This document shows, piece by piece, positions 4,832 through 61,787 of a stretch of 64,000 bases of DNA. Source of the DNA: Candidatus Zixiibacteriota bacterium (GTDB lineage: Bacteria; Zixibacteria; MSB-5A5; GN15; FEB-12). The position numbers and the translations under genes are program-made. Under the pieces are notes generated by a model. It was not told where the DNA came from, searched no databases, and saw nothing but the letters and a program-made list of their open reading frames with translations. Every line of letters starts with the position of its first letter. Position 1 is the first letter of the stretch. Location of the stretch: NCBI GenBank assembly GCA_029860345.1, contig JAOUBJ010000002.1, positions 248,001 through 312,000 of the forward strand, in the 5' to 3' direction.

Positions 4832-5759
4832 GTGTTTGTTAATTTCGAAAGCGGGTGATCGGATCAACGGCGCTTCAAGACCTTCCACAGTTCGTCTTAT
4901 TGCTGCTATTGGCATCTTGCAGGCTGTGGCATCGTTCGCCTATCCCATTGCCAAATACGGCCTGGCCATTATTGAGCCGTTCACCTTTGCCTTCTACCGA
5001 TTCGTGCTGTCATCTTCCTTGTTGCTCTTACTGACGCGCCTGAAGAAGCACGACAGGCCGATTGACAAACGAGACTACAAGCATGTCTTCCTGTTGGGTG
5101 TTCTCATAATACCGCTCAACCAGACTCTCTTTCTGCTGGGGCAATCGATGACCGCCGCCGGACATGGCGCTTTCATTTTTGCCACCACACCGATGTTTAT
5201 CTTCATACTGGCCATGATCCACCTGCGTGAACGCTACACCCACCGTCGACTGATCGGTGTGATTGCCGCTTTGGCCGGCGTTGCCACAATCATGCTGTCG
5301 GGCGATATCGAGGTAAGGCGACAGTATTTGGTTGGTGATCTGATCATTTTGGTGTCGGTGGTGGCTTGGGCATACTACACGATTATCGGCAAGCGGTTGG
5401 TGCGCAGATACGGCGCGCTACGTATAACGGCATACGCCCTTGCTTCCGGGTCGGCGCTCTACTTTCCATTTGGTCTCTATCATGCCCTTCGCTTCGACTA
5501 TAGTGTCGCTACGCTCGAAGCATGGGCCGCCGTTGTCTACATGGCCGTGGGCTTGTCGTTGGTGGTCTATGTGCTATGGTACTGGGTGCTGAAATACATG
5601 GAGGCGTCGCGCATAGCCATCTTCCATAATGTGCAGCCGGTACTGGCCACCCTTATTGCGGCCCTCTGGCTGGGTGAACAGTTGACCGGAACATTCCTGG
5701 TGGGTGGACTGATCGTTCTGACAGGTGTTCTCATCGCCGAAAGCAAACAGACGGGCTGA
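4803..5759 (+). CDS. EamA/DMT family permease
   Basis: An inner-membrane transporter with ten predicted helices arranged as two EamA repeats. The first begins near residue 30 (TVRLIAAIGILQAVASFAYPIAKYG) and the second after GDLIILVSVVAWAYYTIIGKRL. The C-terminal half carries the family phrase YMEASRIAIFHNVQPVLATLIAALWLGEQL. It probably exports amino acids, metabolites or drugs. The true start is uncertain: ATG 4803 overlaps the SDR gene by 29 bases and has no Shine-Dalgarno sequence, while a TTG at 4836 would begin just after the SDR stop. A terminator hairpin follows directly. Confidence 0.88.
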   Translation: MAVCIAACYRCLLISKAGDRINGASRPSTVRLIAAIGILQAVASFAYPIAKYGLAIIEPFTFAFYRFVLSSSLLLLLTRLKKHDRPIDKRDYKHVFLLGVLIIPLNQTLFLLGQSMTAAGHGAFIFATTPMFIFILAMIHLRERYTHRRLIGVIAALAGVATIMLSGDIEVRRQYLVGDLIILVSVVAWAYYTIIGKRLVRRYGALRITAYALASGSALYFPFGLYHALRFDYSVATLEAWAAVVYMAVGLSLVVYVLWYWVLKYMEASRIAIFHNVQPVLATLIAALWLGEQLTGTFLVGGLIVLTGVLIAESKQTG

Positions 5760-48132: not shown

Positions 48133-51100
48133 TCACCGAAAGTCCCTGCTCTTTAACTTGATTCTTTCACCGTTCAAGGTCATTGGTTCGAAGTGGACGC
48201 CGATCACGTTGGCTACGCCGTCCTTTTTTTCAAGTGTTCCTTTTACCAAAAGTGCCCGCGAACGCACAATCACCTTGCGGAAACGAGTCAGCATGTTCGG
48301 CTTGACCACGATATTGGCAAACCCGGTCTCGTCCTCAAGTGTGATGAACATAAACCCCTTGGCCGTCATCGGACGTTGACGGATTATTACCACCCCGGCC
48401 GTTCGAACGATCTTCCTTGTCGACATCTCAAAAAGATCAGCCGCCGAAGCAATACCGCGCGCTTTAAGCGATGGACGCATCATGCTCATCAGATGCGGCA
48501 GGGTCGACAAGTCCAGTCCCTTGAAGTCGGCGACCAATGTTTCCATCGTGGTCATCTCATCAAGCAGTTTGTCACCCCGCTCATCGGTATCCATCGACAA
48601 AGCGCCCTGTTCCTGGTGCACCAGTGAGAGTATTTGCCAAAGCGCCTGACGGCGGCTGTATCCGAAACAATCAAAAGCGCCGGTCATAGCCAGTTGTTCC
48701 AGCGCGCCCTGGTTGAGTTTGGTGCGGTGCATAAAATCCTCGATCGAGGCAAACGGCCCGGCGTCAAGCTCCCGCTCGATCAGATCCCTGGCCGCCTCGC
48801 CCAAACTCTTCACCTGGCAAAACCCGAGGCGAATCGATTTGCCTTCCACGGTACAATCCCATCGGCTTATCGCAACATCGACCGGCAAGAATTCCAAACC
48901 GCGTCGTTGCGCCTCGTAGACCACGGTCGACGGATTGTAGAAGCCCATCGGTTGCGAGTTCAAAAGCGAACAATAGAATTCCTGCGGGTAGTACACTTTG
49001 AGATAAGCCGAGACATAAACCAAAAGAGCGAACGAGGCAGCGTGCGATTCGGCGAATCCGAAATCGGCAAAGGCGGACAGTTGATCGAAAATGCGCAGGG
49101 CGGCTTCGTGGGGGATACCTTTGTTTTTCATGCCGTTGATCAACCGTTCACCCAAGGCTCGCATCTTTTCGTGCGAACGTTTGTGCCCCATGGCGCGGCG
49201 CAGTTCATCCGCCTCGCTGGGTGTGAATCCGGCCGCGGCCACAGCAACCTGCATCCCCTGTTCCTGAAACAGGGGGATACCCAAAGTCCGTTCGAGAATC
49301 GGTTCGAGGCAGGGATGCGGGTAGGTGATTGCTTCCTCGCCGTTGCGTCGCCTGAGATAGGGATGCACCATGTCACCCTGGATAGGTCCCGGTCGGATCA
49401 GGGCGACCTCGACGACCAGGTCATAGAACCTTCGCGGTTTGTGGCGGGGCAGGGGGTTCATCTGGGCGCGCGATTCCACCTGAAACACTCCAACCGTGTC
49501 GGCGGCGCAAATCAGATCGTACACCCGTGGATCATCGTAGGACAGTTTGGCCGGGTCTATAGTGACGCCGCGTTGCTCTTTGATCAGTGTGAACGCTTCG
49601 TCCAAAAGCGAAAGCATGCCCAGTCCGAGTAGATCGATCTTCACGCAGCGGGTTGCCTCGGCATCGTCTTTGTCCCATTGGATAACGGACCGCTCCGGCA
49701 TGGTGGCATTCTCGATCGGCACCACCTCCCACAACGGTTGTTTGGTAATAATCATACCGCCGACATGGATACCCAGGTGACGCGGGAAGCGGGCGATCTC
49801 GGCGCAGAGATGCACCAGGAGTTGTACGCGACGGTCGCGGCGGTTGAAACCGGCGTCGATAATCTGTTCATCCATATCATCGCCGCTCGAAAAATGATCC
49901 AGCAGCTTGGCCAGCTTGTCGACTTCGTCCAGAGAGAACCCGAGCGCCTTGCCGACATCGCGCACCGCCGAGCGTCCACGATAGCTGATTACTTCACAGA
50001 CCATAGCGGCATGACGACGACCGTACTTGTTGTAAACATACTGGATGACTTCTTCACGCCGGTTGTTGGCGATGTCGATATCGATATCGGGTGGTTCGGT
50101 GCGCTCCTCGGAGACGAATCGCTCGAACAAAAGTTTTAGCTTGATCGGATCGACCGCGGTTATCTCAAGACAATAGCAAACGGCCGAGTTGGCCGCCGAG
50201 CCGCGTCCCTGGCAGAGAATACCGTTCTCATTGCAGAAACGAGCGATGTCCCAGACGATCAAAAAGTATCCGGACAATTGGAGTTTCTCAATTATGTGCA
50301 GTTCATGTTCCAGTTGTGTGAATACCTGCGGCGTCATCTGGTCGTAGCGGCGGTCGGCGCCCAGGTAAGTGAGGCGTCTGAGATAGCTGTGTGTAGTTTC
50401 ATGCGGCGGCACTTCAAAGTCGGGTAACGTCGTGTTCAACTCTTCCAGAGAAAAGTTGCAGCGCTCGGCGATAGCAACGCTGTTGGCGATTGCCTCGGGG
50501 TAGCGTCGGAACAGCCGTACCATTTGCGATGGTGCTTTCAGGTATCTTTCGGCATTGGGATACAGCAAGTCATTGGCCGCGTCGAGCGTGGTGTGGTTCT
50601 TGATACAGGTAAGCACATCCTGCAAGCGGCGTCCGTCGCGAGTGGCGTGATGGACATTGTTGGTCGCCACGGTTGGAATCGACAAAGTGTGTCCGAGTTG
50701 TGTCAGTTGGTCGCACAGGGTTTCATGTGTTGGTAGATTATGGTGTTGTAGTTCCAGGTAGAAATTGTTCAGCCCGAACAGGTCGCGATATTGTGCGGCT
50801 ATACGTCGTGCTTCGGTATAATCATCGTTCAATAGGGCCGTCGGTATTTCTCCCAGGATACAACCGGAGAGCGCGATCAATCCTTCAGAGTGTCGCGCCA
50901 AAATGTCGCGAGTGATTGTTGCTTCGTTCTTTTTGTTTTGCAAATGGGCTTCTGAGAGCAATTGCGATAGGTTGGCATAGCCGACTGAGTTCTTGACCAA
51001 CAGCACAAGATGGTGTCCGTGGGTGAGTGTGATCTCGGCGCCGAAAATCGGTTTGATCCCATGTGCGACAGCAGCCTGGTGGAATCTGACGATACCATAT

Positions 51101-51231
51101 AAACCGTTGTGGTCGGTGATGGCCAGGGAGCCATAGCCCAACTCAGCGGCGCGCACGACAAGGTCTTCCGGGTGTACGGCGCCATCAAGGAAGGAGAAAT
51201 TGGTGTGGGCGTGTAGTTCAACGTAGTTCAT
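48133..51231 (-). CDS. dnaE2: Error-prone DNA polymerase III alpha subunit, DnaE2 type
   Basis: About 1032 residues, the usual length for DnaE2 (shorter than replicative DnaE1). The N-terminal PHP domain begins YVELHAHTNFSFLDGA. The palm catalytic motif is PPDIDIDIANNRREE, followed by the HAAMVCEVISYRGRSA segment; GRGSAANSAVCYCLEI and the C-terminal OB fold (VIIRQRPMTAKGFMFITLEDETG) are clear. It works with ImuA and ImuB in SOS-induced translesion synthesis. I place the start at ATG 51231. Fifty-five residues upstream in frame are translated Family A and D repeats. A GTGATAAATCAC inverted repeat sits three bases before the start codon. It is separated from imuB by 400 bases of repeats. Confidence 0.93.
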   Translation of the reverse strand: MNYVELHAHTNFSFLDGAVHPEDLVVRAAELGYGSLAITDHNGLYGIVRFHQAAVAHGIKPIFGAEITLTHGHHLVLLVKNSVGYANLSQLLSEAHLQNKKNEATITRDILARHSEGLIALSGCILGEIPTALLNDDYTEARRIAAQYRDLFGLNNFYLELQHHNLPTHETLCDQLTQLGHTLSIPTVATNNVHHATRDGRRLQDVLTCIKNHTTLDAANDLLYPNAERYLKAPSQMVRLFRRYPEAIANSVAIAERCNFSLEELNTTLPDFEVPPHETTHSYLRRLTYLGADRRYDQMTPQVFTQLEHELHIIEKLQLSGYFLIVWDIARFCNENGILCQGRGSAANSAVCYCLEITAVDPIKLKLLFERFVSEERTEPPDIDIDIANNRREEVIQYVYNKYGRRHAAMVCEVISYRGRSAVRDVGKALGFSLDEVDKLAKLLDHFSSGDDMDEQIIDAGFNRRDRRVQLLVHLCAEIARFPRHLGIHVGGMIITKQPLWEVVPIENATMPERSVIQWDKDDAEATRCVKIDLLGLGMLSLLDEAFTLIKEQRGVTIDPAKLSYDDPRVYDLICAADTVGVFQVESRAQMNPLPRHKPRRFYDLVVEVALIRPGPIQGDMVHPYLRRRNGEEAITYPHPCLEPILERTLGIPLFQEQGMQVAVAAAGFTPSEADELRRAMGHKRSHEKMRALGERLINGMKNKGIPHEAALRIFDQLSAFADFGFAESHAASFALLVYVSAYLKVYYPQEFYCSLLNSQPMGFYNPSTVVYEAQRRGLEFLPVDVAISRWDCTVEGKSIRLGFCQVKSLGEAARDLIERELDAGPFASIEDFMHRTKLNQGALEQLAMTGAFDCFGYSRRQALWQILSLVHQEQGALSMDTDERGDKLLDEMTTMETLVADFKGLDLSTLPHLMSMMRPSLKARGIASAADLFEMSTRKIVRTAGVVIIRQRPMTAKGFMFITLEDETGFANIVVKPNMLTRFRKVIVRSRALLVKGTLEKKDGVANVIGVHFEPMTLNGERIKLKSRDFR

Positions 51232-51631
51232 AGGTGATAAATCACTTTTTCGCGCTTGGCGGCGTTGTAGTGTCATGCTGAGCGCAGTCGAAGCATGAGG
51301 TTGCAACGCGCACGGTTTTGTAGGTCGAAACCCCTGGCCCGAAGGGTCGTCCTGAGCGCAGTCGAAGGACGGGTCTCGACAAACCAAAAACCCCACAGCA
51401 AGCTATGGGCCACCCATGACTCGTGGGCGGGTCCGTCTTCGAATCCGCCAACTTCGGCAGGATCACAGGGATCCTGCCCTACTGGTACCGTGGCGCATGA
51501 GGACGTACACCACGCACAGTAACACACTTGTTGTATAGTCCAAAGGCTGTCAGGCGAGTCACCTGACAGCACAGACAAATCCGCGTGGCGTATGAGGACG
51601 TACACCACGCACAGTAACACACTTGTGTGCA
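51232..51631. other. Repeat island splitting the imuB-dnaE2 cassette
   Basis: It contains one GTGATAAATCAC box (51234-51245), Family A at 51273-51300, a Family D/A composite (51321-51383), a partial Family B (51428-51450), and two Family C units (51489-51518 and 51583-51612). No gene is present. The cassette genes are normally adjacent, so this gap is likely due to repeat accumulation. Confidence 0.7.
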
Positions 51632-53182
51632 CTAGTCGAAAACACCTTGCAAAAACCATTGTGAACATGTGCGATCAAAAAAGAAAAGATACTGACGCCG
51701 GTCGTCGGTGTGTAGCTCATAGTAGAGACGGTCAAAACCACTCTGCCACCAACCTCCGGAAAGCCGCCAGGGACCGAACCATCGGTCGACCTTTTGTATG
51801 GCACCGTGACCATGTTTAATGGCCGACAGTCTACCGTTGCGAATGATCGCTTCAGTTTCTATCGGTGTCGGAAAAAGTCGCAGCCCGCCAATGTTATGAT
51901 TACAGTATGCAACCGTGGCCAAGGCGGAACAATTGTCTGTGGAGACAGAGCCTGAGCGCTTGCTGCGCCTGGTGTCATCAATGGGGGAGAGGCAATAATT
52001 CTGTTCCGGAAGCAGCGCCGGGTTAAGGGTTACGGTATACAGGTTGCGGTTTGGCAAGACAGTGTTCTTACCAGGGGGGCCGTCCTTTCGATGTTTATGC
52101 CGATGATCGAAACCAAGCTGTCGTGAAGGAAGCGGTGCGGTTGCATTTTGTGGGATAAGTACGATCAGGTCGGTGACACCGGAGGTGAGTTGCAAACGTT
52201 CCAGTTGGGAATGTAATTGTCGTGTGAGTTTCGTAAGGGAGAGAGTTGGTTTTTCAGTCGATACAATCACGGTTTCTTCGCGACGGTTGTCCAGAAACAG
52301 GGTCAGTGTGAGCCGACTTAAACCTTGCCCTGATTCTTTCAGATGGGCCAACAGGGGAGCCAGTAGTTTTTCGGTGTGATTTACAATGGCGGCTGTGTTG
52401 TAGATGCGATAGGTGAGATGCACCTTGTTCGAAATATCCATCCCCGGATGGATACGCACAAACTGTTGTCGATCATCGCCGCGCGACAGATGCGACAATG
52501 TTGCCCCTTCATGTCCGAAGCGCTGAGCCATTTCATTCGATGGAAACTCAGCCAGCCGTCCAATCGTTTTGAGACCCAAATTGCGTAATGATTCGAGAGT
52601 GTCCGAGGATAGCTGCAGTTGTGAAATATCCAGATTCCGTATAAACGTGTCACCACCGTTTTGCTTTACAATAGTGTGATGGTCGATCTCGGTTGTTTCT
52701 GCGGCAACCCTGGCGATGAATTTGTTGTCACCGATACCTACCTTTACCGGATAACCGAGTGCCTTGACAACAACGATTATCTTTTCAGCGATAGTAGTTT
52801 CATTTTGATAAAGTAGTATAAGCCCGCTTACCTCCAAAAAGATACCAAGCGCACCGGAGATGCCTTTTGTGTAAATGCCGTCCTCCACAAAGGGGCCGAC
52901 TGTGCGAAGCGCGTTTAACAATTTCTGTGATTCATCTGTTTCCTTCTCGGTGTTGCGCACTTTGACGATCAAGTCGGGGCAGATTACGTGCGCCTGTGGA
53001 GCGGTACTGCCTATGAGTACGCCATATTCCAGGGCCGGCTGGTTCATGGCGGCAATCGGCGCTGTTTTGTGCCTGCCTTCGATGAGCACGAACGGTTGTG
53101 CGGCCAGCGATGGTTCTTTTTGGTAAAACATCTCCAGTGAAAAGGTGTCGATCAGTATACAGGCGATACGTTTGTTATTCAT
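51632..53182 (-). CDS. imuB: ImuB, catalytically inactive Y-family polymerase-like protein
   Basis: 516 residues. The N-terminus ACILIDTFSLEMF and the thumb region (LKTIGRLAEFPSNEMAQRFGHEGATLSHLSRGDD) match the Y-family. The acidic pair of the SxDE catalytic motif is missing (the segment reads FLEVSGLILLYQNE), as in all ImuB proteins. The C-terminal VDRWFGPWRLSGGWWQSGFDRLYYELHTDD ... WFLQGVFD is the ImuB-specific tail that binds partners. ImuB bridges DnaE2 and the beta clamp. It starts inside the end of imuA (eight-base overlap), indicating translational coupling. Confidence 0.92.
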   Translation of the reverse strand: MNNKRIACILIDTFSLEMFYQKEPSLAAQPFVLIEGRHKTAPIAAMNQPALEYGVLIGSTAPQAHVICPDLIVKVRNTEKETDESQKLLNALRTVGPFVEDGIYTKGISGALGIFLEVSGLILLYQNETTIAEKIIVVVKALGYPVKVGIGDNKFIARVAAETTEIDHHTIVKQNGGDTFIRNLDISQLQLSSDTLESLRNLGLKTIGRLAEFPSNEMAQRFGHEGATLSHLSRGDDRQQFVRIHPGMDISNKVHLTYRIYNTAAIVNHTEKLLAPLLAHLKESGQGLSRLTLTLFLDNRREETVIVSTEKPTLSLTKLTRQLHSQLERLQLTSGVTDLIVLIPQNATAPLPSRQLGFDHRHKHRKDGPPGKNTVLPNRNLYTVTLNPALLPEQNYCLSPIDDTRRSKRSGSVSTDNCSALATVAYCNHNIGGLRLFPTPIETEAIIRNGRLSAIKHGHGAIQKVDRWFGPWRLSGGWWQSGFDRLYYELHTDDRRQYLFFFDRTCSQWFLQGVFD

Positions 53183-54365
53183 TCAGCAATACCTCGGCGT
53201 GGGCACCTTCTGCGGATATTCTGCTTTTGGTGACGGTGACATTTATTCGTGAGCAGGCAGTGTTTTCTTCGCGTAGGGTGCGGCCTTGTGTCGCACCTTC
53301 TGATCGGTCGGGGTCAAGCCCCGACCCCACGCGTTGAGATAATGTTGCGGAGTAAGAGTCTTTGGTTGTCACCAGACGCGACACTTCCAGCCGCAAGGCC
53401 ACCATGCTGGCCGGAAGGAACTGTCTTGAATCGCTTGAGTTGTCGGTTAAAAAGATCACCAACGCTTTTGAACGAGAGACTTGTTGCCTTAGCCGATGCA
53501 ACAGATTGGACGATGGTGGCGGGTTCACGCCGCGGCGCGCAGGCGAAGACGGACCCGCCTTACAAGAAAGATTCGTGGTTTTCACAGCGCGCAAAGCGCG
53601 AGAAACAGGCTTGCCTGTCACCCTGAGCGCAGTCGAAGGGTGAGCACAAGTCAGGTCAACGACGACACTATCGACCATCTGATGTGACAAAAGCAACTCC
53701 GCGCTACGCAGGCCCATAACGAAATTGTCCGGCTTGACGACGGAAAGTTTTTCAATATCAACTCCACACGAGGCCGCCGCGGCCGGAAAGAACGAACCGG
53801 AAAGATCAATGTAGGCCACAGTCCCCGATTTGGTCAGAGTGGCCAGCATCATAAAAAGCAAACTTGTCTTGCCACAGCCGACAGCGCCGGTGATCTCGAT
53901 CAGTTGACCATAGGGGATACCCTGCCGGGGGAAAAGCGCATCAAGGCGTGAGATACCGGTGTGGAAAATCGGCTCCGACAATCCGTCTTTCGACAAAACA
54001 GCCTCGGGCCATTTTTGGATTATCAACTGTCGCAGTTGTGATAAATCACGCTGTGATAAATCACGTGGTAATAAATCACGCTGTGATAAATCACCATCAC
54101 CCCCGCTTTTTCTGTCACCCCCGCCTTTTCTGTCACCCCCGCGAAGGCGGGGGTCCATCTTCTTTTTTGAACCGACGGAGGAACAGACTGGATTCCCGCC
54201 TTCGCGGGAATGACAAGAGGTGGACGGGACTGACGAAGAGGTGGACGGGACTGACGAAGAGGTGGCCGGGACTGACGAAGAGGTGGCCGGGACTGACGAA
54301 GAGGTGGCCGGGGATGACGAAGAGGTGGCCGGGAATGACGTGTGGGTGGAGTTGTCAGTGTTCAC
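53175..54365 (-). CDS. imuA: ImuA, RecA-like mutasome protein with in-frame repeat insertions
   Basis: The RecA-fold core is clear: [24 protein letters not shown], Walker [10 protein letters not shown], then [10 protein letters not shown] and the strand SVVVDLT. Directly after that strand lies an insertion of about 45 residues ([12 protein letters not shown] through ARRGVNPPP) that is translated Family A and Family B repeats (53518-53643). The core resumes at [22 protein letters not shown] second repeat-like stretch, [13 protein letters not shown], occurs near the C-terminus. The N-terminal 110 residues are also repeat-derived: PATSSSV units (21-bp repeat, 54211-54335), [15 protein letters not shown] (Family E), and LSQRD units (15-bp repeat). 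The GTG start at 54365 is therefore doubtful. It overlaps imuB by eight bases. Whether it remains functional is unknown, but the frame is intact. Confidence 0.8.
53518..53643. repeat. Family B + Family A repeats inserted in frame within imuA
   Basis: A reverse-orientation Family B unit (53518-53562), an ACAGGCTTGCCTGT palindrome (about 53605-53618) and a Family A unit (53618-53643) lie consecutively inside the imuA reading frame, without breaking it. Confidence 0.85.
54038..54094. repeat. Four tandem 15-bp units containing GTGATAAATCAC
   Basis: Units start at 54038, 54053, 54068 (diverged) and 54083. Each contains the inverted repeat GTGAT-AA-ATCAC. They lie within the N-terminal part of imuA. 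The same 12-mer is found at the dnaE2 ribosome-binding position (51234-51245). Confidence 0.8.
54211..54335. repeat. 21-bp tandem repeat (six copies) in the imuA 5' region
   Basis: The unit is TGACGAAGAGGTGGCCGGGAC, with two G/A variants; the first copy is 20 bp. It encodes PATSSSV repeats in the imuA frame and apparently grew from the end of an adjacent Family E palindrome (CGGGAATGAC). Confidence 0.85.
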
Positions 54366-56151: not shown

Positions 56152-57366
56152 TTACTTTCGCCAGCTTCCTTTGTAATTGAGTTTGGACAAGAACTGATTC
56201 AAGGTCGCGTTCAGACTCCAACCTGTGACCACCGAGATTGTGATGGTGTGGCCCGACAGGTCAGTCCCGCCGGCATTAGAGTAGTCCACGAAATTGTGCC
56301 TGATCTGCGCGCCCAGGTACCAGCCTGTACGTCGGCTCAAGAACACACGTTGCCGCAGCCCAGCACTGGCGGCAAAGGATGAGTGCACTTTGACCGTCTC
56401 CGGGTCACCCGCCTTTTTCACACTTCTGATGGCGTTGTAACCCACGCCGACAAAGCAGTCGGTGCTGAATCTGCCATGGTCTATGAACTTAAGACCGAGA
56501 TCGAGACCGACCAGCCAACTGCCAAATCGATCCGTCTCCACAATGTGGCCCAGGCTATCGACCTGATACTTGTTTTTGGCCGACAGGAACCGGTAGTTCA
56601 ACACGAGATCACTGCGCCATCTATGTCCCTCGCCACCCATTTGTAGTCCGATTACCGGATGGTATCCCAGTATGCTGTTCTTCCCTTGCGGTCGCCAACT
56701 TCCAAGGACGATTCCAAAATGCCCGCGACCCGGAAAACGTTTCTTCGTCTGGACTACAAAGTCATCATACTCTTTGCGTAGCGCCGTCCCTTGCATTCCG
56801 TCCGCCTGGATGTTGGCGAAGGCGGAGTCAAACTCACCGGCGTAGAACTGTCCCAACGATTGTTCGGTTACAGAGGCCTCCGGTTTCAGCGAAATCTTTT
56901 CAGCCAGATCACTCCTGAAGCTGATGAAGCTGTCGTGAGTATTATCTGTGGGCTGATTGTGACCATAAAGCACACTCCACCATAGCCATCCGGCCATATA
57001 ATCTTGTTCGCTTCTGTACCACAGCATATTTGGTATTGTTGAGGAACCGACAAGAGAATCGTTGAAAAACCCATGATCGGTCAATACCAGCATCCGTGTG
57101 ACTTCGAGGCTACCCGCCGGACCACATTCTGAACGAATGTAGTCGATCACATCCAAAACCGAGTCCACCTGGTTGTCCTCATAAAGCCGCGGGGCCTGGC
57201 GTTCGAAATTGTAATGGTACTTCTTGCACGTGCCGGAGTCATCTTGGGTGAGGAAGTCGTGCATTCCTTCCAGTTCATTAGGCATGCGTTTAGTCACGGT
57301 AGCACAGGACATCAAGCAACTCAAGGTGGCGCAAAGGAGAACAGTTGGAATCGTTCGGTGTAACGT
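56152..57366 (-). CDS. Putative outer-membrane lipoprotein with non-standard start codon
   Basis: The body (about 390 residues) has a polar N-terminal half and a C-terminal half of alternating beta-strands (SDLVLNYRFLSAKNKYQ ... GSWLVGLDLGLKFID ... GWYLGAQIRHNFVDY) like a barrel. The family is not recognised. The conventional starts TTG 57324 and ATG 57312 fall inside a clear lipoprotein signal, HRTIPTVLLCATLSCLMSC, with lipobox LMSC. Extending upstream, the only position matching a Shine-Dalgarno sequence (GGGAGG, four bases away) is an ACG at 57364-57366, giving a signal peptide starting TLHRTIP. ACG may act as the start, or an ATG has mutated. It is convergent with the DinB gene. Confidence 0.6.
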   Translation of the reverse strand, partial: TLHRTIPTVLLCATLSCLMSCATVTKRMPNELEGMHDFLTQDDSGTCKKYHYNFERQAPRLYEDNQVDSVLDVIDYIRSECGPAGSLEVTRMLVLTDHGFFNDSLVGSSTIPNMLWYRSEQDYMAGWLWWSVLYGHNQPTDNTHDSFISFRSDLAEKISLKPEASVTEQSLGQFYAGEFDSAFANIQADGMQGTALRKEYDDFVVQTKKRFPGRGHFGIVLGSWRPQGKNSILGYHPVIGLQMGGEGHRWRSDLVLNYRFLSAKNKYQVDSLGHIVETDRFGSWLVGLDLGLKFIDHGRFSTDCFVGVGYNAIRSVKKAGDPETVKVHSSFAASAGLRQRVFLSRRTGWYLGAQIRHNFVDYSNAGGTDLSGHTITISVVTGWSLNATLNQFLSKLNYKGSWRK

Positions 57367-57550
57367 GGTTCCTCCCGGAAGCGAATTCGACTAATAGCAA
57401 GTTGCCTTTTTGCAGTGGGAGAAACATAGCACAGATTGGCCCGATTTGCAACCGGAACAACTCCCACCTTGACTTAGAATTGAAAACGGATATATTTGGT
57501 GTGTAATCACGCCCGTTACGTGAAAGGACAGTCGAGGTAAGGACACATCT

Positions 57551-58855
57551 ATGAAGACAATCATCGTTGGTCTGGCCGTTCTGCTGCTGGCATCGCTCGC
57601 CGCGCCGCCGCGTTTGGTGGCCGATGACTATTCCGGTACAATAAGAGTGTTCATCGTCGAGCCGGTTTCGCGCTGGGCCGACGGCAACGGCGCTGCCTAT
57701 GGTTTCGGTCTGCTTGACTTCGCACTGGTCGAAGATGTCGAAATCAAAGACTATGAAGCCTGGGAGCAGACGGTTGTGTTCAATCCCGGTGAGTCCGGAT
57801 TCACGGTGTCGCCCAGCAACGTTATGGCTCAGGCCGTATTGTTTAACGCCGATTTTATCGAGAAGGATTCTTACCCACCTTACGGATACCTGTTCGACGC
57901 ACATTATACCGACGCTGCCGCTCAGGTGCGACCGGGGCAAATAAGCGCTAACAGCACGGCGCTGGGATTTACCCACACCGCCTGGGTGGAGCAATCCGGC
58001 TCCGGCGGCTGAACGACTTGTCCTCAAGCGCGGGCCGCGCTTGCAACGGTTTACAACTCAGGGAGCTACAACTTTCTCTATTGCACGTTGGTCGGGGACC
58101 GCAATCCCAAAGCGTATGACCGGCTCGTATTCGGTTACAATTTCGCACTCTATCCCAGCACTTTTTTCGGTGGCGGATACCGCATCTACGCCGATGCGCC
58201 GGACAATTCACAGGAGTTTGCCGATCTGGTCGTCGACTGCGGCAATCGAGTGGTCCCGCCGATGGGTTTGATTCTCACTATGGAACCGGCCGAAGACAAC
58301 ACTTATGAGATACGGCTCAGAATCACCAACGGTATGCCGGCCAACGTTGCGCCGACCGATCCCAACGCACCTGTCGGCGAGTCGCAGGGTCTGGTTGATG
58401 TGGTGTATGAGTTCCGCGCCAGCACGTCCGACGGCGACAACGATCAACTGCTCTACCAGTGGGATTGGGGCGATGGCAATGTCTCGGGTTGGCTGGGACC
58501 GGTTGGTTCTGGGGAAAACTGTCTGGCCTCGCACAGTTGGCCGACCTTTGATACTTGCGGCATCAAAGTGCGCGTCAAGGATAGCTGGGAAGAGGTCTCC
58601 GATTGGTCACCGGAGCTAACTGTGGTGATCGGTCCGGAGTGTTGTCAGGTTCGTGGTGATGTTGACGACAGCGGTGGAGAGCCGGACATCTCGGATTTGG
58701 TCTACCTGGTCGACTTCATGTTCTCAGGCGGACCGGCTCCTCCATGCAACACTCAAGGTGATATTGATGCCAGCGGCGGTATTGATATTTCCGATTTGGT
58801 TTACCTGGTCGACTTCATGTTCACCGGTGGCCCACCGATTCCCGCTTGTCCCTGA
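57551..58855 (+). CDS. Probable selenoprotein: secreted thioredoxin-fold protein (UxxC) with PKD and dockerin-like domains
   Basis: Read through TGA 58010-58012, the frame encodes 434 residues. A signal peptide (IIVGLAVLLLASLAA) is followed by a beta-rich domain (about 27-140, SRWADGNGAAYGFGLLDFAL). Next is a thioredoxin-like domain (about 145-240): SGGUTTCPQARAALATVYNSG, FLYCTLVGDRNPKAYDRLV and the cis-Pro region LYPSTFFGGGYRIY. A PKD-like domain (LLYQWDWGDGN) and two dockerin-like repeats (DISDLVYLVDFMF) complete it. Codon 154 is TGA and Cys157 follows, so the CxxC site is UxxC. There is no other stop between the two halves, and codon use and domain order continue across the TGA. A perfect eight-bp hairpin begins 12 bases after it. 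A role in extracellular thiol-disulfide or peroxide chemistry is inferred. ATG 57551 has AAGGACA upstream. Confidence 0.82.
58010..58043 (+). promoter_or_regulatory. Putative bacterial SECIS element after in-frame TGA
   Basis: TGA 58010-58012 is followed by 12 bases, then CAAGCGCG (58025-58032), loop GGC (58033-58035) and CGCGCTTG (58036-58043), a perfect eight-bp stem. The apical loop starts after 20 bases and its first base is G. The distance is identical to that in the other candidate at 45521. Confidence 0.7.
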
Positions 58856-59288
58856 AGTTTTACTGGTAGCTATATCTGTGCGTGGTGTACGTCCTCGTGC
58901 GCCACGACCTTGTCACCCAGCGTTATGTCTTATGTCACCCTGAGCGCAGTCGAAGGGTGAATCCCATGACCATGGCTCATGCCTCGACTCCGCTCGGCAT
59001 GACAGGGCTCCGCGGGAAGCGCATCGGAGTCATCTCTTGTGCGTGGTGTACGTCCCCGTGCGCTACGACCGTGTCATCCAGCGTTACGTTCTATGTCACC
59101 CTGAGCGCAGTCGAAGGGTGAGCCTAGTCGAAGCAGGAACAGACGAAAACGTCCGCTGCCCACCGATTCCCGCTTGTCCCTGAAGTTTCACCGTTCGTCA
59201 CATTCGGATTGTCAGACAATCAAGACTATCGTATCTTCGTTGTGTAGCCCATACCTCAGATGCCCTTCAACGCACGAGGAGGTACAAA
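58856..59288. other. Repeat-rich spacer between two dockerin-protein genes
   Basis: Two Family C units (58879-58907, 59040-59068) alternate with Family A units (58934-58960, 58978-59003, 59096-59121), forming a duplicated C-A block of about 160 bases. Around 59159-59186 a 28-base copy of the end of the preceding gene (from GCCCACCGATTCCCGCTTG through the TGA and CCTGAAGTTT) is repeated, a sign of local duplication. No gene is present. Confidence 0.7.
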
Positions 59289-61787
59289 ATGCGTGAACGG
59301 GTCATCGCCATGACTGCGAAACTTCTTTGTTTCGCAATCGTCGTCGCAACAACACTGGGCAACGCCAAGACTGCAACCGACAAGGCCGCTGCTGAAGCCG
59401 GCTCCGGACAACCCTCACCGAGCCAGCTTGAGGCTCTGCCATGGCTGAAACTTCAGTTTGAACCGGATGTAGCCCCGCCGAACTACGTGGCCAAACAGCC
59501 GGGTCATTATTCGACCGATGATTGGGCAGCCGTGATAGATTCAACCTGGGGTCCGGGTGATCCTATGGAAGAGCAGTTTGATGTCTACCAGCGGTTCTGG
59601 AAACGCATCGACACTATCTGGCCATGCTTTCAGGACATGACACTGGACTGGGACTCAGTCTACACCACGAACATCATGGAAGTGATCTCCAATCCCAGCA
59701 AGGGTCGGTTTGGGGCCATGTTAAACCACAGCGGCATTGCGTTAATGGAGAGTCACACCTATTGTCAGCACAACGTGGTGGCCAATACCGCCAGACTGCC
59801 GGGAGTGCCTCTGATGTCAATCGTCGGATGGAATCGCAACCATCACTTCGGGGCTGCCCTCACGCCGCTTTCCGACAGTACGCTACTGGTATACCAGGTG
59901 ATTGAGAATCACCCGCTCGGGCTGGTGACTGGTGATCTCGTGCTGGGCTATGATGGAATACCCTGGACGGAGCTTTATCCGCAATTGCTGGAAGCACAAC
60001 TCCCGATTTACGACGAAGGTTGGTGGGGCAGTTCGACTCTTTCGTTCGCCCATTCGGTGATGATCTCGTGCGGTGCCAACTGGCACTTATATGACACCAT
60101 CGACATAGTAAAGTATGAGAGCGGGGATACGATGCACTTGCCGACCGGTTTACTGGCCGGGGAGAACATGGTCTGCTACGGCACGGAGATGATTCTGCCG
60201 ACCGGTATACCGACGCCCGATTGGAACCATCCGGTCTCATGGGGTATGATCCAAGGAACGCATATCGGATATGTTACCAGCTTGGTCTGGCTGGAACCGT
60301 CCGGCGTGGAATTCTTCAATGCTATCGATTCGCTTATGTTCCACCATGAGACCATCGGCCTGATTATCGATTGTCGGTTCAACTATGGGGGGAGCATATT
60401 CGAGGCGTACCCTGCGATGGAGCTCCTTTTCAACAGCTACACCGAGACGGTCGGCTTTGGCCAGCGTTGCGAACCCAACATCAGGGATTCGTTGTGCGTG
60501 ATTTTCCCGCCGATCAACTATGCAATCAACGCCGATCCCAATACCTACTATGACCGACCGATAGCTCTTCTGTGCGGTCCGGGCGGAGTAAGCGCGGGTG
60601 ATCAGACCCCGTTGGCCCTGTCGCTACATCCGGAAGCACGCACTTTCGGCAAGCCGACGGCGGCGGCCTTCAATGCTGCCACACAGTTTTCGCCCGGCAA
60701 CGGTTACACGATGCAACACTCCATCGGCGACGCATACTTGGCCAGTAATCCCGGACACTATTTGACCCACGACCCGCTACCGCTGATCGACGTTGATGTC
60801 TGGTTGACACAGGAGGGAGTGGCGGCGGGTGAAGATAATGTTATCAACTCGGCCATACAATGGATACACGATGAGACACCGGTCTGGTTCTTTGCCGATT
60901 CAAGTTTCGGGCAGGCGCCGCTCGATGTAGCCTTCAATGGGTGGTCCCCCGGCAGCGTGGACGCCTGGGTCTGGGAGTTCGGTGACGGTGACTCCGGTTT
61001 TGTCGTCGCTCCCATGCATACCTACACCGAACGCGGCATCTATGACGTTACCGTTACCGCCGACATCGATGGACAGATGCACGGCTACACCGACACCGCC
61101 GCAATCGTGGTGTTGGCCGATACACTCGTCACCGACACCGTGACAGTAACAGCGACCGACTCGACGGTGGAGGTGCATATCTTTGCCACCAATACGATCC
61201 CGCTCAACAGGCTCACAATTCCACTCGAATACGCGGGCGCTGTGGGCTTGGTTTACGATTCTTTCTCCACGGCCGGATGCCGCACCGAGTACTTTGGTAG
61301 CCAATCGCAGATTCACTACTCACCAGCGGGAAAACGAACGACGATCAAAATGCAAACTACGGTCCATTGGAGCCAGCACGACCTGTCGCCCGGTACCGGA
61401 GAAGTGTTGACGATATACCTGCACATCGAAGGCAATGCCTCTCCCGGCCAACAAACGATCCTCTCCCTTGACGGATACACCGGCCACGAACCGGTCTTTG
61501 CCCGCTCACAAACAGAGTACCTGGCCCTGGGCGTCGATGGGCTGGTGGCCTACACCACTTGCTGTCGCGGCATCAGGGGCAACGTTGATGACGATTCATC
61601 AGATGCTATTGACATAGCCGATCTGGTTTACCTGGTCGACTATATGTTCGCACAGGGAGTCCAGCCTCCGTGTGGTTATGAAGCGAATGTTGATGCTGAT
61701 ATTTTCAAGCGTGTCGACATTTCAGATTTGGTTTACCTGGTCGACTATATGTTCACCGGCGGCCCGCCACCGCCGGACTGTCCGTGA
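59289..61787 (+). CDS. Secreted S41-family peptidase with PKD and dockerin-like repeats
   Basis: 832 residues with a signal peptide (AKLLCFAIVVATTLGNA). The central part is an S41-like tail-specific-protease fold: IENHPLGLVTGDLVLGYDG is PDZ-like, and LIIDCRFNYGGSIFEAYPAMELLF matches the LDLRxNGGG region. ALLCGPGGVSAGD places the nucleophile Ser, and RTFGKPTAAAF the general-base Lys. A PKD domain (AWVWEFGDGDSGFVVAPMHTYTERG) follows, then a beta-sandwich resembling a cohesin-like or CBM fold (about 640-750), and two dockerin-like repeats (DIADLVYLVDYMF; DISDLVYLVDYMFTGG). The Shine-Dalgarno sequence is AGGAGGT. It probably cleaves extracellular proteins from a surface-associated position. Confidence 0.82.
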   Translation: MRERVIAMTAKLLCFAIVVATTLGNAKTATDKAAAEAGSGQPSPSQLEALPWLKLQFEPDVAPPNYVAKQPGHYSTDDWAAVIDSTWGPGDPMEEQFDVYQRFWKRIDTIWPCFQDMTLDWDSVYTTNIMEVISNPSKGRFGAMLNHSGIALMESHTYCQHNVVANTARLPGVPLMSIVGWNRNHHFGAALTPLSDSTLLVYQVIENHPLGLVTGDLVLGYDGIPWTELYPQLLEAQLPIYDEGWWGSSTLSFAHSVMISCGANWHLYDTIDIVKYESGDTMHLPTGLLAGENMVCYGTEMILPTGIPTPDWNHPVSWGMIQGTHIGYVTSLVWLEPSGVEFFNAIDSLMFHHETIGLIIDCRFNYGGSIFEAYPAMELLFNSYTETVGFGQRCEPNIRDSLCVIFPPINYAINADPNTYYDRPIALLCGPGGVSAGDQTPLALSLHPEARTFGKPTAAAFNAATQFSPGNGYTMQHSIGDAYLASNPGHYLTHDPLPLIDVDVWLTQEGVAAGEDNVINSAIQWIHDETPVWFFADSSFGQAPLDVAFNGWSPGSVDAWVWEFGDGDSGFVVAPMHTYTERGIYDVTVTADIDGQMHGYTDTAAIVVLADTLVTDTVTVTATDSTVEVHIFATNTIPLNRLTIPLEYAGAVGLVYDSFSTAGCRTEYFGSQSQIHYSPAGKRTTIKMQTTVHWSQHDLSPGTGEVLTIYLHIEGNASPGQQTILSLDGYTGHEPVFARSQTEYLALGVDGLVAYTTCCRGIRGNVDDDSSDAIDIADLVYLVDYMFAQGVQPPCGYEANVDADIFKRVDISDLVYLVDYMFTGGPPPPDCP

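Follow-up and report, generated by a model that had tools for sequence, protein, structure and literature searches.

A probable exported thioredoxin-like selenoprotein of Candidatus Zixiibacteriota, from a family that alternates between selenocysteine and cysteine

Does a TGA triplet within an otherwise open reading frame of a Candidatus Zixiibacteriota contig (JAOUBJ010000002.1) end a gene, or does it encode selenocysteine, and if so in what kind of protein? The frame lies at 57551-58855 of the window, by which we mean the whole stretch of 64,000 nucleotides that was analysed. Its sole internal stop is the TGA at 58010-58012 (codon 154) and its terminal stop is a TGA at 58853-58855; a mechanical listing of open reading frames breaks the gene into 57551-58012 and a 3' fragment. 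A first-pass annotation, made from the letters of the DNA, had read the frame as a single selenoprotein gene, and its coordinates were all found to be right. The analysis described here makes it highly likely that the product is an exported thioredoxin-like selenoprotein, in which UGA 154 would be decoded as selenocysteine (Sec) by means of a hairpin and which would carry out thiol-disulfide exchange, most of its relatives probably doing so together with a beta-barrel protein. The features of the locus are as follows.

57534-57543, + strand: probable ribosome binding site, GAGGTAAGGA (from the sequence)
57551-58855, + strand: candidate selenoprotein gene, 434 amino acids, TGA codon 154 read as Sec (from the translation and the relatives)
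57551-57622, + strand: probable Sec-type signal peptide, residues 1-24 (by eye; the N-termini of relatives are also hydrophobic)
57629-57940, + strand: N-terminal beta-rich domain, residues 27 to about 130 (low-confidence model)
57968-58258, + strand: thioredoxin-like domain, about residues 140-236 (PDB thioredoxins by profile; profile-profile match with Omp28-type proteins, 98%)
58010-58012, + strand: putative Sec codon TGA (U154), first position of U-x-x-C (aligned column with 44 TGA, 25 Cys and 0 other)
58019-58021, + strand: second active-site cysteine, C157 (invariant in the 61-row alignment)
58025-58043, + strand: candidate bSECIS hairpin, CAAGCGCG-GGC-CGCGCTTG, apical loop at 58033-58035
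58154-58156, + strand: cis-proline of the thioredoxin fold, P202, in the loop YPSTFF (invariant in the 61-row alignment)
58391-58603, + strand: PKD-like domain, about residues 281-351 (Pfam PF18911, E 9.5e-4; PF00801, E 0.004)
58637-58852, + strand: two dockerin-like repeats (repeat profile against the PDB)

The gene starts with an ATG at 57551, and the sequence GAGGTAAGGA upstream of it is probably a good ribosome-binding site. The leader is followed in order by the beta-rich domain, the thioredoxin-like domain, the PKD-like domain and the two dockerin-like repeats. The beta-rich and PKD-like domains had not featured in the first-pass annotation; both Pfam matches to the latter fall below the curated cut-off, and in some relatives the former comes after the thioredoxin domain. 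Structure models of the protein reached pLDDT values of 36 and 46, low because the alignments, of 3 and 4 sequences, were too shallow. An antisense open reading frame at 57290-58027 was considered as an alternative and rejected. Near the stop codon of the gene, two intergenic copies of an 84-nt direct repeat (58877-58960 and 59038-59121) are 92% alike, and the 34 nt that span the stop codon (58830-58863) recur 328 nt downstream (59158-59191, 97%), which suggests local duplication. Elsewhere in the window, at 48133-54365 on the - strand, genes for a RecA-like protein, a Y-family polymerase (IMS) and a DnaE-type polymerase III alpha subunit stand in tandem order and look like an imuA-imuB-dnaE2 mutagenesis cassette.

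The internal TGA falls, as had been proposed, at the first active-site cysteine of the thioredoxin-like domain, giving the active-site sequence GSGG-U-TTCP, and the cis-Pro loop is likewise where it had been placed. Searched against the PDB, the family profile matched thioredoxin-fold chains with E values of 0.0014-0.005. The role of the selenoprotein is most likely that of an exported thiol-disulfide oxidoreductase, in which the U-x-x-C pair would undertake thiol-disulfide exchange, as suggested by the motif, the invariant cis-Pro and the kinship with thioredoxins. The selenolate of U154 would attack a disulfide in the substrate, or else a thiol would pass electrons to the oxidised pair, and C157 would resolve the intermediate. 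The alternative that survives best accepts an exported selenoprotein but gives it peroxide, methionine sulfoxide or metal(loid) chemistry as its main job. Sec does serve such enzymes in other families (PMC13188914), but the combination of U-x-x-C and cis-Pro and the resemblance to profiles of thioredoxin, glutaredoxin and PDI point to disulfide exchange, and one of these other chemistries would seem an improbable main function.

Export of the protein, which the signal peptide would carry over the inner membrane, is supported by the N-terminal signal sequence, claimed earlier and recognised again by eye, and by the dockerin-like repeats. The designation of these repeats as dockerins stood in part: a profile of 15 repeat sequences had seven matches in the PDB, every one of them a dockerin chain (best E 0.008), whereas Pfam gave no match at E <= 1. 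The repeats recur in many proteins of these genomes, and the downstream S41-peptidase-like gene at 59289-61787 shares them with the selenoprotein. Dockerin-like attachment at the cell surface is reasonable, and the C-terminal pair probably keeps the protein there or in an extracellular assembly. To call it attached to an assembly of cellulosome type was an overstatement, the cohesin-like matches in the genome being few and weak (five, just at or over the cut-off). The description of this as an unusual setting for Sec also went too far, since three types of extracytoplasmic selenoprotein have already been catalogued, namely the TonB-dependent-receptor type, the MtrB/PioB type and the Omp28-related type (NF045500/GOS_C).

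An initial scan returned one protein of 77% identity and two of 44-46%, each with a TGA at the same codon. A profile search then matched 52 of the 132 genomes of the phylum; one match, a fragment of 30 residues, was left out, which leaves clear relatives in 51. Cysteine at the TGA position in homologues had been named beforehand as support for Sec, and across 69 aligned rows this column holds TGA in 44, Cys (TGC or TGT) in 25 and no other codon, one Cys gene (L101/L125) being counted twice so that 24 are distinct. In the 61-row alignment four columns are invariant: a histidine, the Sec/Cys position, the second cysteine and the cis-Pro (the last three being C128, C131 and P176 in alignment numbering). 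On a tree built without the active-site column, well-supported branches force at least six changes from one of Sec and Cys to the other, and parsimony forces 11; L098, a Cys form (TGT), groups with the Sec forms L100 and L104 with full support. When the window gene is compared with its relative L009, substitutions fall mainly at third codon positions on either side of the TGA, and dN/dS is 0.058 before it and 0.102 after it, values that are rough because dS is high. Purifying selection is thus indicated both before and after the TGA, and the conserved codon with selection on both sides can be followed down to relatives of 40-45% identity.

Tandem pairs of family genes were seen on G066 C169, G067 C349, G069 C347, G081 C2 and G018 C268, the pairs in G066 and G081 each consisting of one Sec and one Cys copy. 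In L011 the frame changes upstream of the TGA, around position 5260, through either sequencing error or decay. Two genomes of Thermoplasmatota archaea contain homologues without the TGA, with Cys in the four loci read (L197-L200); one Krumholzibacteriota genome had no homologue, and viral contigs contained no relatives. A record labelled 'Calditrichaeota' and one further record are apparently phylum genomes already counted, their coordinates matching G056 and G052. In the Thermoplasmatota loci, and in L154, L155, L158 and L159 of the phylum, the thioredoxin domain stands ahead of the beta domain. The window protein has the opposite order, and the difference is an apparent circular permutation.

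The published criteria for a bSECIS element are a loop of 3-9 nt, a stem of 4-16 bp, a G in the first two loop positions, a spacing of 16-37 nt and a minimum free energy of -7.5 kcal/mol or lower (PMC13188914). The window hairpin, which the first-pass annotation had picked out as fitting the bacterial definition, lies within all of these limits, with eight perfect Watson-Crick pairs, a 3-nt loop that begins with GG 20 nt past the TGA and an energy of -11.3 kcal/mol when folded alone. Compared with shuffles, the 60-nt stretch that holds it has a stability ordinary for its composition (z 0.48), and the argument therefore rests on comparative evidence. Applied to perfect stems, the strict rule is satisfied by 25 of the 44 TGA forms as against none of the 25 Cys forms, and a looser hairpin score is higher in TGA than in Cys forms (p = 4e-9, the sequences being related and hence not fully independent). 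L098, the TGT form that groups with Sec forms, has no such hairpin. Among 18 TGA forms of the same hairpin geometry, pairing is kept by two-sided changes at most stem positions. As a measure of chance, 12 of 2290 TGA trinucleotides in the window (0.5%) are followed 17-24 nt later by a comparable stem, that is, one of at least 8 bp with a loop of 3-5 nt and a G in the loop's first two positions.

The components of Sec synthesis and decoding for which a search had been advised were all found in the source genome, a 4.76-Mb draft that is 99% complete. selB (307 bits) adjoins selA (506 bits), tRNA-Sec is present (69 bits; ARAGORN tRNA-SeC), and selD is a selenoprotein gene itself, with an in-frame TGA in SCAGUASKIPP (L092, around 1501-1560) at the known Sec position. 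Together these genes argue that the source cell very probably reads UGA as Sec. Across the phylum selA occurs in 117 of 132 genomes, so frequently that its presence or absence carries little statistical power. Two TGA-bearing genomes, G068 (93% complete) and G094 (79%), yielded no selA, no tRNA-Sec over the cut-off and no clear selB; in G097 an apparent end of selB lies at a contig edge, and in G078 selB and tRNA-Sec were found with no selA match. These missing genes are likely to be assembly gaps. With the exchange of TGA and Cys at one column, the hairpin that tracks the TGA and the selection on both sides of it, the machinery upholds the proposal of Sec at codon 154, where SelB and Sec-tRNA(Sec), brought by the hairpin immediately downstream, would decode the UGA.

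Directly 5' of most family genes is encoded a protein of about 400 amino acids with a leader, whose similarities are weak only and mostly to outer-membrane barrel models, and which is predicted to be an outer-membrane beta-barrel. Its gene is present in 47 of the 51 family genomes and in a further 12 genomes outside that set (Fisher p = 1e-19, a value inflated by shared ancestry, the sequences being related), and lies within 4 kb of the family gene in 41 of the 51. Since the two genes stand side by side in most relatives, what usually works at the outer membrane is probably a unit of the barrel and the exported redox protein. The source genome has one copy of the barrel gene, upstream of a second Sec-encoding paralogue (contig 15:78408-80646; L123, L201). 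No barrel gene is found near the window copy or its close relative L009. The window copy thus appears to be a duplicate retained under selection without a barrel neighbour, the absence of which means that its function may have drifted. A more tentative proposal, which we put somewhat short of even, is that the family forms half of a hitherto undescribed, phylum-wide two-part redox system of the outer membrane, in which the barrel and the exported UxxC/CxxC protein would act together, the barrel providing a passage, an anchor or a route for electron/thiol exchange across that membrane, and Sec and Cys being swapped repeatedly in the exported part.

That the window copy is an additional paralogue lacking the usual neighbour, and that the frame of a third relative of it (L134) is broken upstream, could be taken as signs of a decaying gene in which the TGA arose by nonsense mutation or sequencing error. 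However, the same TGA is present in 44 gene copies with purifying selection either side, the hairpin is conserved with compensatory change and the Sec machinery is complete; the pseudogene reading was rejected as extremely improbable. A reading of the TGA as Trp or another residue through a changed code or a suppressor, for which no support was found, was rejected with an equally slight probability, as the aligned column in relatives is Cys and never Trp, and TGA terminates the selenoprotein gene and 11 of the 31 long open frames that the window contains.

Read as an exported thioredoxin-like selenoprotein, the window protein represents a large additional subfamily of selenoproteins, one whose genes are split at the TGA by standard gene calling and which is missing from the catalogues consulted. 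On this reading Sec is used in a protein that is exported and of surface type, in a phylum with near-universal selA. The repeated switching between Sec and Cys, together with the absence of the hairpin from Cys forms, makes the family a good natural system for studying why Sec is retained in an exported protein, and the linked beta-barrel is a testable partner.

The window protein scores below the cut-off of every Pfam and NCBIfam model, Pfam giving it weak PKD matches only, and its family is absent from NCBIfam and from the 2026 selenoprotein catalogue. Family members match thioredoxin-like models, and they have weak matches to NF033782 (Omp28 lipoprotein) and NF045500 (Omp28-related selenoprotein). 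Judged by sequence similarity, the nearest known kin of the window protein are Omp28-type proteins and NF045500 (GOS_C), far below cut-off. GOS_C, a hypothetical protein, was first found in ocean metagenomes (PMC2398784) and is placed by the 2026 catalogue under NF045500. In common with NF045500 the window protein is thioredoxin-like with a UxxC site, has a Sec/Cys pair and is probably exported, and 17 of 61 family members match that model weakly. In contrast to NF045500, where the cut-off is 200 bits, the window protein scores 12.8 in a match confined to the C-terminal end, and its beta domain precedes the thioredoxin domain; the cut-off is passed by none of the genomes of the phylum.

With Omp28 (PF11551/NF033782) the window protein shares a homologous thioredoxin domain. 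A profile-profile comparison (hhalign) of the family with the phylum proteins that match PF11551 gave 98% and E 2.7e-13 over this domain, and the window family is therefore related to Omp28-type proteins, although the domain order differs and PF11551 is not matched by the window family (61 members, E <= 0.1). The C-terminal end is dockerin-like in the window protein and sorting-domain-like in the Omp28-type relatives. Other proteins in the phylum match Pfam Omp28 and are similar to NF045500. This second Omp28-like group has several members with one in-frame TGA, none above the NF045500 cut-off, and L173 is a TGA form with a sorting-like domain at its end. Among the papers searched, none treats Omp28 together with selenoproteins. 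Bacterial thioredoxin (PF00085) has the same CxxC/UxxC and cis-Pro arrangement, but the window protein would be exported, is multidomain and does not match the Pfam thioredoxin model on its own; the two repeats look calcium-loop-like, in the manner of type I dockerins, though Pfam does not recognise them. An exported thioredoxin-like UxxC protein is thus a kind already known, and what is new here is the subfamily, its repeated Sec/Cys switching and its linkage to a barrel gene.
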